A stretch of 64,000 nucleotides of DNA from Dysgonamonadaceae bacterium. GTDB lineage: Bacteria; Bacteroidota; Bacteroidia; Bacteroidales; Azobacteroidaceae. The position numbers and the translations under genes were made by a program. The notes under the pieces were generated by a model. It had not been told where the DNA came from, did not search any database, and was given only the letters and a program-made list of their open reading frames with translations. Location: NCBI GenBank assembly GCA_031260045.1, contig JAIRKO010000051.1, forward strand, positions 52,330 through 116,329, given 5' to 3'. Of this stretch, positions 12,841 through 60,154 are shown piece after piece. Numbering within the stretch: the stretch's first letter is position 1; each line of letters starts with the position of its first letter.

Positions 12841-13076
12841 ATGAACGCCCCCCCCCCGCTCGGCGAAGTCTCTGACTACGTCGTGTTAAAAGCAAGCGAA
12901 ATATACTACATTTTTGTCGGTAACGCCCGATTTTTCTACATTTTTGTAGCCGTCAGCGACCCATTATAAGAATGTATCTGACAACGAAAATTATTCCTAT
13001 TCGTAATATATACAGCAATTTATATATACCTTACTACTTTCCTCTCATTGCGGCATAGCTTTTGAATTAAAAAACA

Positions 13077-51928: not shown

Positions 51929-53693
51929 ATGAAAAAGGAATATAGTATTGCGCTCTTCATTATTACGCTTACGGGATTGTTATTGGTAACGCTTAGCGGC
52001 TCCGTGTTTTCCGGTTATCATTTTATGGATTGTTCCGGTTTTATTCTTTGGAAAGAAAATTTATCCAATACGTCTTTTTTTGAATGTCTGAAAAACAATA
52101 TTGAACAGGAAATGGGCGGACGTTTCCGGCCGGCGTGGCACTTCAACTCGTTGCTCAGAACATGGCTTTTGGGAGATAATATGCTTTTGCAGGGTTTTTG
52201 TCAACTGTTTTTAGTGATTTGTGCGGCATTTCTTGCCTATTTATTGGGACGTAAAATTAAATGGACGCATGGGGAAAGTTTATTGTTCGCGGGAATCTGT
52301 CTGATTGGAACGCAGTCGGCGATATTTTATCAAACTTTGGCTATCGAAACAACCGCGTTCGTCGTTTTGCTTTTGTCTTGGCATCTGATTTTAACATATT
52401 TTAAGGGGGGGGGGGGGGATTCTCTCTTACGCCGGATTCGTCATCCTTTCCGTACTGATGGCTTTGATGAAAGAGAATTTTACTCTGGTTTTACCTGCAA
52501 GTTATTTGTTTTATTGCATGCAGTATAACGAAAAATACCGGATTGGATTTTGGAAAACCGTATTACATACATGGAAAACGGGTTTATGGTTATTGCTCTT
52601 AACCGCAGGCTGCTTATGGGCGATTTTGACATTTGCCGGTAATGATTTTGGTTATGCCGGCGTAGGAGGTATTCACAGTCTTTTCCCATATGTAAAAAGC
52701 ACAATTTATTTGTATGGCATAAGCGGTTGTTTATTGGCATTTTTCATCGTAGCGTATTTATTCCGAAACGGCAAAATCAATTTCAAAAACTGGTTATTTC
52801 CCACTTTATTATTTTTGGCAATCACTCTTTCTCAAATTATTATTTACGGAAAATCCAATATTATTGATCGTTATTTGATACCGGCTGTAATGGCTTGCGC
52901 CTATTTTTCCATTTTTGTTTATCGTGAACTAAAACAACAAGACACATCCGTCAACAGGGTTTTATGGAAAAATGTCGGTCTGGTTTTAGGAATAGGGCTG
53001 TCGATTTTTTGCAGTCTTGTTGTTTTTTGTAAACCGCTTCAAGAAGGAATCATACGGATTGCCGTACAGTTACAAGGCGAAGTGATTCAAACGATGACTT
53101 CCGTTTCCAGCTTGCAATATTTATTGAGCAGTTTGTCCATCATCGGCATTTTCGGTTTGATAATCGGCGTTATTTTGGTGATATATGGTTTGATAAGAAA
53201 AAAATATTCTATTCATAAACTCTCGCAACTCTATCTGATTGGGCTGTTGCTTGTCTTGTTTATGAATGGCGGCTTAGCATTTGCCTCGTGCAAAAGATAT
53301 GCAATGAGGGGTTTTGCCATAGAAAACTTTCTGCAAACGATTATTGATAATTCCCATGCCGGCGACGCCATTTTGATTGCCGGTAATCCTTATGTGGATA
53401 TGGAAGGCGTAGCGACCGGTATTTCCACATGGCTGAGAAAACGGGAAAGGAACAATCTTTTTATTTGCCCGATAACGAACAATCCTCAGGAAGAAAAATT
53501 TATTTCCGGACTGAAAGATTTTTATCGCCAAAAGGATATAAATATCATTGAAAATAAAGAAGATATCAAAGTAATCGCCATTTTTCCCAGTTCGGAAATT
53601 GTTTTTGAAAACACCAACCGTTGGTTTGACGTTAATTCGTTTGACAGGTATGAGTTTACAGGAAATTATGTAGTATTTGTAAGAAAAAAATAA
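51929..53693 (+). CDS. Polytopic membrane protein (GT-C-like glycosyltransferase candidate), split by a 14-G tract
   Basis: Frame 1 (51929-52528) to FKGGGG at the tract; frame 2 resumes as GILSYAGFVILSVLMALMKENFTLVLPASYLFYC... to 53693; removing one G restores one ORF. Confidence 0.75.
52405..52418 (+). repeat. Homopolymeric G(14) tract inside a coding region
   Basis: Counted directly: TTTTAAGGGGGGGGGGGGGGATTCTC. Confidence 0.9.
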
Positions 53694-53697
53694 AACG

Positions 53698-53865
53698 ATG
53701 CACATCGCAAATCCCATCTACGACGCAGTCTTCAAATTCATGATGAAAGACGATTATTTTTTAGAAATTCAAGAAAAAGAACGGCTAATCGCTCAGCAAG
53801 ACAAAGCTATTAAAGAACAAAAGAAAAGAATTGCCGAACTGAAAAGGCAGCAAGCGCAAAAATAA
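53698..53865 (+). pseudogene. Internally deleted remnant of an Rpn/PD-(D/E)XK nuclease family transposase-like gene
   Basis: MHIANPIYDAVFKFMMKDDYF (N-terminus) joined to LEIQEKERLIAQQDKAIKEQKKRIAELKRQQAQK (C-terminal coil-like). Confidence 0.55.
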
Positions 53866-53893
53866 TACTCACCAGTAAACGTCAAATAAAAAT

Positions 53894-56419
53894 ATGAATA
53901 CAATCGCAAAAAAATTCGTACCGCACGTTATAGCAATCGCTATCTTTTTACTGCTCGTGTGCATCTATTTCGCACCCGCAGTATTTGAAGGAAAAACCAT
54001 TTATCAAGCCGATATGGCGCATGCTGCGGGAATGGGCGGAAGCCAGACAAAACAATATGAGGAAACGGCAAAACCGGGAGAATTCAGTACTTGGTCGGAC
54101 GCTATGTTTGGCGGAATGCCGTATAATGCGGGCTATGGACGCCCTACGCCGAGTTTGCCCGGCTTCGGATTAATAGGCTGGCCGATTCAACGTATCGGCT
54201 CCTTGAACGCAGGAATGGTTTTGATGGGACTAATCTGTTTCTACATTTTAATGTGCGTCATGGGAGTAAACCGGTGGCTGGCAATTGCCGGCGCCATCGC
54301 ATTTGCGTTCGCGTCCTATAATATCATTATCATTCAAGTCGGTCATATTACCAAAGCCTATGTCATGGCTTACATGCCGCTTACCATAGCAGGGATGTTC
54401 CTGCTTTTCAAGCGAAAGCGTCTGTTGGGAAGCCTCCTGTTTTTGTTGGGGGTCGCCTTGTCCGTCGCCGGTTACCATATTCAGATTACCTATTATCTGG
54501 TTCTTCTGTGCCTGTTTTTTTATATTGGTTACGTTATCGAAAAAATCAGGGAAAAGAAATGGAAAGAATGGGGTATAACCACTGCGATTATGACCGGTTG
54601 CGTACTGCTCGCCATGTTGCCCAACGTGGGATCGCTATATACCCAATGGGAATTGGGGAAAACTTCGCTCCGGGGACCTACGGAGTTAACTTCGGGCGCG
54701 TCTTCTTCCGACGAGGGAAAAGTATCCTCCGGCTTGGATAAGGAGTATGCTTTCCACTGGAGTCAAGGGAGAGCGGAGTTGCTGACATTCCTGATACCAA
54801 ATCTTTACGGCGGCGCTTCGGGCGGAACGTTAGACCGCTCCTCCGAGTTTTACCAAACCTTGCGCCGCGCCGGTCAACGCTTGGGCAAAGAAGTACAAGC
54901 GCCGACCTACTGGGGCGATAAGACGTTCACTTCCGGACCTGTTTATTTCGGCGCGGTCGTCTGTTTTCTGTTTGTGTTAGGCATGTTTGTTGTAAAAAGC
55001 CGGATGAAATGGTCTCTTTTTGCCGGCGCCGTTTTTCTCACGCTTTTGGCTTTAGGTCGACACTTGGACTGGTTTAATACCTTCTTTTTCTATCATTTGC
55101 CGATGTACAATAAATTCCGCGCGCCGGAAATGGCGTTGGTAATTCCGGGCTTGGTAGCTCCGATTATTGCTTTCTGGGGGATAAAGGAAATTGCCGACGG
55201 AAAAGTTGACGCGCAGTTGTTGAAGAAAGGACTTGTATGGTCGCTTTCCGCCTGCGGCGGCATTTGTTTGGCGGTGTGGTGGTTTCCCACGCTTTTCTTC
55301 AGTTTTCAATCCAACTATGATGCGCAATTCGAGCAACAGCCTTGGTACGACGCTTTAATCCACGACCGCGTCCATTTGGCTTCCGCCGATGCGTTCCGTT
55401 CGCTGGTTTTTGTTTTATTGAGCGCCGCTTTGGTTTTTATATTCATGCAGTTAAAGAATAAGAAGCAAGGCGTTTTAATGCTTGGGATAGGCTTTACCGT
55501 TCTTACGCTGGTCGATTTGTGGGCGGTTGATAAACGTTTCCTGAACGACAAACATTTTGTAAATAAAACGTTGGACGAGACTTATACGGAATCCGTCGCC
55601 GATAAGGAAATATTGAAAGACAAGTCCGTATCGTATCGCGTGTTAACGCTCAACAATCCGTTTCAGGAAACAACCGTTTCGTATTACCATCACTCCATCG
55701 GCGGATATCATGCCGTAAAACTGCGGCGTTATCAGGAATTGATAGACCATCGGATATCGAGGGAAATCAATACAATTATCGAATCGTTCCGCAAACCGCA
55801 GATTACGTTGGAAGACATACAGCAGTCGTTCGCTTTCACCCCCTCGTTGAACATGCTGAACACGCGCTACATTATTTACAATCCCGAATACCCGCCCATT
55901 GTAAACCCGCGCGCTTTCGGAAATGCGTGGTTTGTTCGCAAAGCGAAAATCGTAGAAAACGCCGACGCCGAAATTGCCGCCCTGAACGTAATCGACCCGT
56001 TGCAAACGGCTGTCGTGGACAAACGTTTTGCCGACGAACTGAACGGCTTCACCGAAGCACAACCCGATTCCACAGCAAGCATTACATTAGACAATTACCG
56101 CCCCAATCATTTGATTTATACCTCCAAAACAAATTCCGAGCAGTTGGCGGTATTTTCGGAAATTTACTACCAGCCGGGCTGGAAAGCGACTATCGACGGC
56201 AAGCCCGCGCCCCATTTCAGAGCGGATTGGACTTTGCGAGCAATGCGAGTGCCTGCCGGCGAGCATAAAATTGAGTTTGATTTTCGTTCGGAAGGCTATG
56301 TGGCGGCGGCTTACATTTCAACTTTCGGTTCTTTCGCGCTGTTGGTGTTGCTGATTATCGGAATTGGGTTTGTGATTTGGCGGGAAACGTTTGCGAAGCA
56401 AGTACGGATAAAAAATTAG
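53894..56419 (+). CDS. YfhO family large membrane protein
   Basis: 841 aa; many TM segments; C-terminal YYQPGWKATIDGKPAPHFRADWTLRAMRVPAGEHKIEFDF typical of YfhO. Confidence 0.85.
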   Translation: MNTIAKKFVPHVIAIAIFLLLVCIYFAPAVFEGKTIYQADMAHAAGMGGSQTKQYEETAKPGEFSTWSDAMFGGMPYNAGYGRPTPSLPGFGLIGWPIQRIGSLNAGMVLMGLICFYILMCVMGVNRWLAIAGAIAFAFASYNIIIIQVGHITKAYVMAYMPLTIAGMFLLFKRKRLLGSLLFLLGVALSVAGYHIQITYYLVLLCLFFYIGYVIEKIREKKWKEWGITTAIMTGCVLLAMLPNVGSLYTQWELGKTSLRGPTELTSGASSSDEGKVSSGLDKEYAFHWSQGRAELLTFLIPNLYGGASGGTLDRSSEFYQTLRRAGQRLGKEVQAPTYWGDKTFTSGPVYFGAVVCFLFVLGMFVVKSRMKWSLFAGAVFLTLLALGRHLDWFNTFFFYHLPMYNKFRAPEMALVIPGLVAPIIAFWGIKEIADGKVDAQLLKKGLVWSLSACGGICLAVWWFPTLFFSFQSNYDAQFEQQPWYDALIHDRVHLASADAFRSLVFVLLSAALVFIFMQLKNKKQGVLMLGIGFTVLTLVDLWAVDKRFLNDKHFVNKTLDETYTESVADKEILKDKSVSYRVLTLNNPFQETTVSYYHHSIGGYHAVKLRRYQELIDHRISREINTIIESFRKPQITLEDIQQSFAFTPSLNMLNTRYIIYNPEYPPIVNPRAFGNAWFVRKAKIVENADAEIAALNVIDPLQTAVVDKRFADELNGFTEAQPDSTASITLDNYRPNHLIYTSKTNSEQLAVFSEIYYQPGWKATIDGKPAPHFRADWTLRAMRVPAGEHKIEFDFRSEGYVAAAYISTFGSFALLVLLIIGIGFVIWRETFAKQVRIKN

Positions 56420-58337: not shown

Positions 58338-58769
58338 TTAATTAGGAACATTTTCATAAGTCAATCCTTTTTCTTCGCACAATCTACATACCTCATTGCA
58401 CAAGCGCAAAACCTTATCCCGGTCGTCATCCTGCGGCTCCCCATGATGATAATTATCGAGAAAACAAATGCCGAAAATGTGATCGAGCGAACGCACATCG
58501 CGGCTTGTTTCGTGCGGAACATCCATCAATTTATCCACCTCGTGCATCAGTCCGATAAAATTATGGCTCATCGGCTCCACGCCATGCCATTCGCATATCG
58601 CCACCAGATAACGTTCCAACGCTACGGAAGCCACATTAAACACCAAACTGCCCGCATAACCCGCATTTAAGAACTGAATCGCCCGCCGGTGATAGGCTTT
58701 CGCATCGCGGTAGTCCTGCTCGGACATGGTTTTCAAATCCGCCGTTGCGCCGTAATCGTCGTTTACCAT
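58338..58769 (-). CDS. HEPN-like small helical protein overlapping the anfK stop
   Basis: MVNDDYGATADLKTMSEQDYRDAKAYHRRAIQFLNAGYAGSLVFNVASVALERYLVAICEWHGVEPMSHNFIGLM; ATG at 58769 overlaps the anfK stop (58763-58765). Confidence 0.7.
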   Translation of the reverse strand: MVNDDYGATADLKTMSEQDYRDAKAYHRRAIQFLNAGYAGSLVFNVASVALERYLVAICEWHGVEPMSHNFIGLMHEVDKLMDVPHETSRDVRSLDHIFGICFLDNYHHGEPQDDDRDKVLRLCNEVCRLCEEKGLTYENVPN

Positions 58770-60154
58770 ACGCCCAGTACCCATTCTTTGTTATGTTTAT
58801 ATTCCATGTCCGAAAAAATAGCGTTCGCCATCCCTTCCGCCAGCCAAATCGCGCCGGCGTAACCGACAATCGGATGCCGGTAATGCCCCGCCCGGTCGTA
58901 AACCGGAAAACCGACCCGAAGCATCGGAACATTGCAATCAATGGAAACGAACCGCCCTTTGGAATGACCCAAAATAAGGTCAAGCGCAAGTCCCTGATTC
59001 TTAATGCGGTTTTCCAGTTCCCAAAGGTCGGCGTTGGTAACGATTTCCATGTCGAAATCGACGTTTTCCGTCATTTCTTTGACGCGGGGATCGTTGGCAT
59101 AATTAACATTGTCGTCGCCGAGCAGTAGCAGCACGGGCAACATTTCCAAATCAAGACAAAACTGCGCGAGACCAATCACCATATCGGGATTTCCGTATAT
59201 CGCCACGCGCTTGCCGGTAAGAAACATATGCGACACGTCGGCAATCGCGTCAATGGCGATGCCGCGTTTGCGGACGAGCGATTCGGGAATGGCTTTGCCG
59301 GTCATATTTTTTACATTTTGAAGAAAAATATCGGTATTGCGGATGCCAATCGGTGTAGGTCCAATCACCGCCGGCACGTCAAATTCGCTTTCCAAAAACT
59401 GTGCCGCCTTGCCGCCTTCGTAGCGGTTGAGGGCGATTGTCCCGCGAGCGTTGGCGGTGCCGCGCAGGTCGTCGATGGTCGTTTCGCCGTGCGACACGTG
59501 GTTTCCGTCGGGCATCAGCGGCGAATCGAAGGCTTCGATTTCAAAAAGGACGGTCGCTTCCACGTCCATTTCCGCGAGTAGGGATTTCAGTTCCGTCACG
59601 TCGCCCGGATTGACCCAGCCGGTAATGAGGTTGATTTTCCCGCTCGTTTCCCCTTCCCGCCGCGCAAAATAGCTGACAAAATCTTTCACCGCCACATCGT
59701 AGCCGCTAATCATGCTGCCCACGAAGCTCGGCGTGTGAATGGGAATGAGGTGAACCTCGCGCCCGGCATACTTTTCCTTGAGTAAACCGTTGTTCAGTTT
59801 CAACACCAGACCGTCGATGTCGTCGCCGATTACTTCGGTCGAACAGGTGGTGATAATCGGTATTACCTTAACGTGCGGATAGCGCATCAGCAATACGTCT
59901 ACGCCTTGCTCCACGCGATTAAGCGCGCCGAAAACCGCCGCGTCTTCATGCAGAGAAGAAGACGCCAATTCAAAACTTTCCTTGAAATGCTGAGAAAACA
60001 GCAGGCGAACAAACATCACGCAACCCTGCCCGCCGTGAACGATGCCGATGCAATCCTTAATGCCGATGCTCGCATACTGCGCTCCGGCAGGCTGGCAGGT
60101 AAATATGGGGTTAATAACCCCGATACGGTCTTTTGCTTTTATTTCACAATTCAT
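58763..60154 (-). CDS. anfK: Fe-only nitrogenase FeFe protein beta subunit
   Basis: GVINPIFTCQPAGAQYASIGIKDCIGIVHGGQGCVMFVRLLFSQHFKESFELASSSLHEDAAVFG; GPTPIGIRNTDIFLQN; short N-terminus; anfG just upstream. Confidence 0.95.
   Translation of the reverse strand: MNCEIKAKDRIGVINPIFTCQPAGAQYASIGIKDCIGIVHGGQGCVMFVRLLFSQHFKESFELASSSLHEDAAVFGALNRVEQGVDVLLMRYPHVKVIPIITTCSTEVIGDDIDGLVLKLNNGLLKEKYAGREVHLIPIHTPSFVGSMISGYDVAVKDFVSYFARREGETSGKINLITGWVNPGDVTELKSLLAEMDVEATVLFEIEAFDSPLMPDGNHVSHGETTIDDLRGTANARGTIALNRYEGGKAAQFLESEFDVPAVIGPTPIGIRNTDIFLQNVKNMTGKAIPESLVRKRGIAIDAIADVSHMFLTGKRVAIYGNPDMVIGLAQFCLDLEMLPVLLLLGDDNVNYANDPRVKEMTENVDFDMEIVTNADLWELENRIKNQGLALDLILGHSKGRFVSIDCNVPMLRVGFPVYDRAGHYRHPIVGYAGAIWLAEGMANAIFSDMEYKHNKEWVLGVW

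Follow-up and report, generated by a model that had tools for sequence, protein, structure and literature searches.

A G14 tract splits a membrane-protein gene

The locus lies in a 64-kb stretch of DNA (hereafter, the window) from Dysgonamonadaceae bacterium GCA_031260045.1, contig JAIRKO010000051.1, whose 1.99-Mb assembly is labelled G000. At positions 51929–53693 on the forward strand, the window carries a membrane-protein gene that is interrupted, 5' of a conserved KEN motif, by a homopolymeric tract of 14 G (52405–52418, forward strand). The earlier note had described 14 consecutive G at these positions splitting a single open reading frame, and the sequence confirms both the run and its coordinates. 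The frame that opens at the ATG at 51929 comprises 163 native codons, the tract included, followed by 36 out-of-frame codons up to a stop, so that the product as assembled (51929–52528, forward strand) comprises 199 residues. Downstream of the tract, 424 codons are open in one other frame, within which an internal ATG would begin a 411-residue 3' part (52458–53693, forward strand), and the remaining two frames contain 36 and 17 stops.

The two halves fuse in silico when the tract holds 4, 7, 10, 13, or 16 G, giving proteins of 584–588 residues (586 at 10 G, 587 at 13 G, and 588 at 16 G), and a change of one base is enough to flip the predicted product, from 587 residues at 13 G to 199 at 14 G and 176 at 15 G. 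The prior claim that removal of one G would join the halves into a protein of ∼587 residues is thus borne out. Its assignment of 13 G as ON and 14 G as OFF is right for both lengths in silico, but 13 is not the sole ON length, as 10 or 16 G would restore the frame equally.

A YfhO-family membrane-protein gene (53894–56419, forward strand; Pfam YfhO, 4.5e-10) directly follows the tract gene and is probably co-transcribed with it. Between the two, a short open reading frame at 53700–53866 looks like a putative remnant of an inserted transposase/nuclease-type gene. Further downstream, on the reverse strand, the window encodes a nitrogenase component 1-type protein (58763–60154; PF00148, E 7e-110), which suggests a nitrogen-fixing symbiont.

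The encoded protein is likely a remote GT-C relative

No direct Pfam or NCBIfam match was obtained for the 587-residue protein, and no solved structural relative was found. However, a profile built from its orthologs and paralogs matched a 720-residue TMTC-like protein with TPRs from another family of the same order (E 5e-5; hhalign E 4e-6). The match spans residues 37–197, including an RFRP motif and the KEN motif just past the tract, and the 720-residue protein has a TMTC_DUF1736 match of its own that falls just below the cut-off. An AlphaFold model built from four sequences, too poor to be usable (pLDDT 40), showed numerous long helices together with a small α/β part at the C terminus. Because the profile matches a TMTC-like protein, the tract gene likely encodes a TMTC-like relative of the GT-C glycosyltransferases, at the level of remote homology. 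The previous description of the gene as membrane glycosyltransferase-like therefore holds insofar as a remote TMTC-type GT-C profile match exists, but not as a direct family assignment. In comparison with the TMTC-type protein O-mannosyltransferases (PF08409) and other GT-C proteins, the window protein shares (i) a polytopic architecture, (ii) the RFRP and KEN motifs, and (iii) the profile match, whereas it has no TPR tail, its DUF1736 region is unmatched, and it lacks a direct Pfam match.

The tract site and both gene halves are conserved between two species

The gene is present in three genomes of the genus, namely G000 itself, the Dysgonamonadaceae MAG Cc175_bin105 (G021), and Cd354_bin49 (G024), each of the latter two representing a species different from that of the window. 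The G024 ortholog is syntenic, with UvrD upstream as in the window, shows 84% amino acid identity, and carries a tract of 10 G at the same codon site, where it is likewise out of frame; the sequence 3' of the tract differs in G024, where a length of 9 or 12 G would restore the frame. The same site thus holds tracts of different length in two species (14 versus 10). The G021 ortholog is intact and 82% identical, with a different loop, devoid of any tract, at this position. Moreover, an intact paralog (G000:C9; 48% identity) is found in the own genome of the window. The YfhO-family gene directly follows the tract gene in all three genomes, with a gap of 5 bp in G024, where the intervening short open reading frame is absent.

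Between the two OFF alleles (window and G024), dN/dS is 0.17 on the 5' side of the tract and 0.21 on the 3' side, and comparisons with G021 gave 0.09–0.16; for the 3' part, the values across three comparisons are 0.14–0.21. The neighboring intact YfhO-family gene has a dN/dS of 0.13, which is close to the values of the tract gene. These ratios indicate that the gene is held functional by selection on both sides of the tract and, because both halves are at low dN/dS, that it is not dead in both lineages. The dS of the tract gene between the window and G024 (0.41) is below that of the adjacent YfhO-family gene (0.80), and the tract allele may therefore have been exchanged by recombination between lineages, in which case the two tract alleles may be less independent than their species.

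Three further tract sites are common to G000 and G024 in homologous genes, with lengths (G000/G024) of 9/9 (OFF/OFF), 11/13 (OFF/OFF), and 9/9 (OFF/ON). Both halves of these genes show low dN/dS, indicative of purifying selection, wherever it was computable, the most diverged pair being synonymously saturated.

Long G/C tracts exceed chance and recur in transferase genes

No other G run in the window exceeds 7, and C runs reach at most 10; this C10, intergenic at 12848–12857, is the sole other G/C run of at least 9. We derived a chance expectation from 79 kb of own-genome sequence not picked for tracts, in which G/C run counts drop about five-fold with each added base, and extrapolated it to the 1.99-Mb assembly. 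The whole assembly contains 17 G/C runs of at least 9 (lengths 9–18) versus ∼2.8 expected, and six of at least 13 versus ∼0.007 expected, so that the G14 exceeds chance. Runs of 8 G/C are absent from the own-genome loci sampled, which sets the long tracts off as a separate class. Runs of A are commoner than G/C runs in this genome, yet the longest are at most 12.

About 12 of the 17 own-genome tracts are located inside genes or at gene ends, and nearly all of the genes concerned serve the transfer of sugar, methyl, or acyl groups. Their Pfam matches comprise a hexapeptide acyltransferase, a SAM methyltransferase, two FkbM methyltransferases, a DUF268 protein, an NAD epimerase, a GT4 glycosyltransferase, a radical SAM protein, and an HpcH/HpaI aldolase in a sugar-type cluster. 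As assembled, they are in mixed states, some in frame and others out. The tract under study is thus one among many in its genome and, as described below, its genus, rather than a lone oddity.

Two own-genome tracts differ in placement. A C18 (L042:6236-6253; G000:C57) lies 5' of the point where a SusC-type receptor gene appears to start, outside its coding part, where a transcriptional rather than a translational switch is possible. Another G14 (L040:12482-12495; G000:C52) lies right where a methyltransferase-like open reading frame begins, and the genes upstream of it are similar to a cytosine-5 DNA methyltransferase and its partner.

Sequences flanking the tracts

The flanks of the window G14 were compared with those of tracts in L031–L042 (G000), L053–L095 (G024), and L134–L153 (G008, a tract-rich relative). 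The dinucleotide TA directly follows 12 of 17 long tracts (71%) in G000, 20 of 51 (39%) in G024, and 22 of 31 (71%) in G008, and follows ∼6% of short G runs in G000 and G024. Reading on from the tract, TAA is frequent in G000 and TACA in G008, across unrelated genes; SusC paralogy accounts for part of the TA excess in G008 only. We considered that the tracts might act as promoter spacers, with TA as the Bacteroidota −7 box, but rejected this, as the flanks hold no consistent TAnnTTTG/−33 pair and most tracts are intragenic. Hairpin-borne tracts were likewise rejected, since the flanking inverted repeats are no longer than those with shuffled partners. No Rfam element was found at the tract site, and sigma-70 promoters near the gene were not in excess over shuffled sequences.

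Tracts across the genus

Among 100 relatives searched, the number of tracts per genome within the genus ranges from 0 to 78. The near-complete reduced genomes G003 and G023 (1.2 and 1.0 Mb) have 19 tracts and none, respectively. In the 20 stretches of G008 that we read, which hold its 31 compared tracts, 13 SusC/TonB-type receptors (for example, L139:3903-7028) carry a tract of 10–13 G at a shared position within the signal peptide, in the context ..GGGVQ.LRAE or ..GGGANHLRAE. As assembled, six of them are in frame (ON) and seven out of frame (OFF), and Plug and barrel domains were found by Pfam in one intact receptor. These genes constitute a candidate array of independently switchable outer-membrane receptors. 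Tracts in G008 also affect genes for four polytopic membrane proteins, a methyltransferase, and a GT2 glycosyltransferase, with TPR matches in two of the three polytopic proteins scanned, and further targets in G024 include a PMT_2 protein, a DUF6044 membrane protein, a GT2, and a SusC.

We rejected a loss of mismatch repair as the origin of the tracts, since G000 encodes both MutS and MutL and most genomes of the genus have them (MutS in 37 and MutL in 35 of 41); MutS is also present in the tract-rich genomes G008, G029, and G031.

Interpretation of the tract

We interpret the G14 as a slipped-strand contingency (phase-variation) switch of a polytopic, probably GT-C-type gene, and give this reading, which is drawn from sequence comparisons, a probability of roughly 85%. 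By the proposed mechanism, replication slippage would add or remove single G residues and thereby shift the frame, with 10, 13, or 16 G yielding the full-length protein (ON) and 14 G the 199-residue truncated product (OFF). Because a single-G gain or loss shifts the frame, the population would be expected to be a mixture of ON and OFF cells that differ in one surface-glycan (or glycosylation) step. The earlier note had put the locus forward as a candidate of this kind, and its proposal gains support from (i) the interspecies comparison, with G14 versus G10 at the same site and selection on both halves, and (ii) the genome- and genus-wide set of tracts in surface-type genes of mixed ON and OFF state. 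Points that speak against a switch are that both known tract-bearing alleles of the gene are OFF, that the G021 ortholog manages without a tract, that MutS and MutL would restrain slippage, and that the two tract alleles, if exchanged by recombination, may be less independent than their species. Poly-G phase variation is, however, known in mismatch repair-proficient Neisseria.

That both tract-bearing alleles are out of frame, and that the intact paralog might cover the function, would also fit a simple pseudogene, in which the tract expanded by chance, the gene became fixed OFF in its lineage, and decay has been only recent. We regard this as unlikely, as 424 codons remain without an in-frame stop on the 3' side, where dN/dS between the OFF alleles is 0.21 at a dS of 0.42; as the same site is retained in two species at differing lengths; and as many other tract genes are alike, some of them ON. 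The run length could instead be an assembly or sequencing error that conceals a fixed in-frame tract, given that several sequencing chemistries are prone to errors in long G runs and that the records of the relatives are metagenome-assembled. A run of 14 bases nevertheless fits well inside a short read, a tract occupies the corresponding codon site in the independent G024 assembly, and, because other runs of the same genome are in frame, a systematic error is not indicated. Even a wrong length would leave a long, hypermutable G tract, and we hold this explanation to be very improbable.

Conservation of the gene despite the frameshift, together with the capacity of long homopolymers to promote polymerase slippage, could also be accommodated by recoding, whereby the G run would induce transcriptional slippage or ribosomal frameshifting that restores the frame at expression. 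Recoding would favor one tract length, whereas the length varies across species and paralogs; most of the programmed slippage sites that are known consist of A/T runs; and the site has no Rfam element. There is accordingly hardly any room for it in our assessment. A pseudogene, a run-length error, and recoding each explain less of the evidence than does the phase-variation switch.

Beyond the single locus, we consider it likely that this genus of uncultured Bacteroidales possesses a poly-G phasome that spans the genome, with slippage independently switching enzymes for surface glycans and entire sets of SusC/TonB nutrient receptors. Its habitat is probably the insect gut, which we infer, and the hosts of such a slippage phasome would then be probable gut symbionts and not vertebrate pathogens. 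Furthermore, if this reading is true, many "pseudogenes" in MAGs of this kind would be switched-off genes.

Comparison with known phase-variation systems

The slippage device itself is that of a classical poly-G contingency locus, known from other phyla, and the more interesting part is the genus-wide set. The poly-G/C contingency loci that make up the phasome of Campylobacter and Helicobacter have been reviewed (PMC8355987; for H. canadensis, PMC2823697). The present tracts resemble them in (i) the occurrence of G tracts in coding sequences for glycosyltransferases, methyltransferases, and other surface-modification proteins, (ii) ON/OFF switching by one-base slippage, here proposed, and (iii) the many loci per genome. 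They differ in belonging to another phylum, in the presence of both MutS and MutL, and in having SusC/TonB receptors among the targets. The hemoglobin receptors HmbR and HpuAB of Neisseria meningitidis contain poly-G in the reading frame (PMC3786947) and, as outer-membrane receptors, are similar in this respect to the SusC set of G008. In contrast to these proteobacterial genes, the G008 set comprises at least 13 SusC-type paralogs of one genome, each with its tract in the signal peptide.

In Bacteroidota, phase variation has so far been described almost wholly via DNA inversion, and we found no precedent for poly-G phase variation in this phylum in the literature searched, subscription papers being outside its scope. 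In its passages on Bacteroides, the review PMC11868660 presents invertase systems and names no homopolymer system; it cites the invertase-driven SusC/SusD phase variation of Bacteroides fragilis (Nakayama-Imaohji et al. 2009). As outlined there, the B. fragilis system shares with ours the phylum and the kind of target, namely SusC outer-membrane proteins and surface polysaccharide, whereas it operates through inversion by a site-specific recombinase and homopolymer slippage is proposed for G008 and the window. If the reading is true, the tracts would represent a homopolymer-based equivalent, from within its own phylum, of the invertase-driven surface variation of Bacteroides, and a similar kind of surface diversity would be reached there by a different mutational route.
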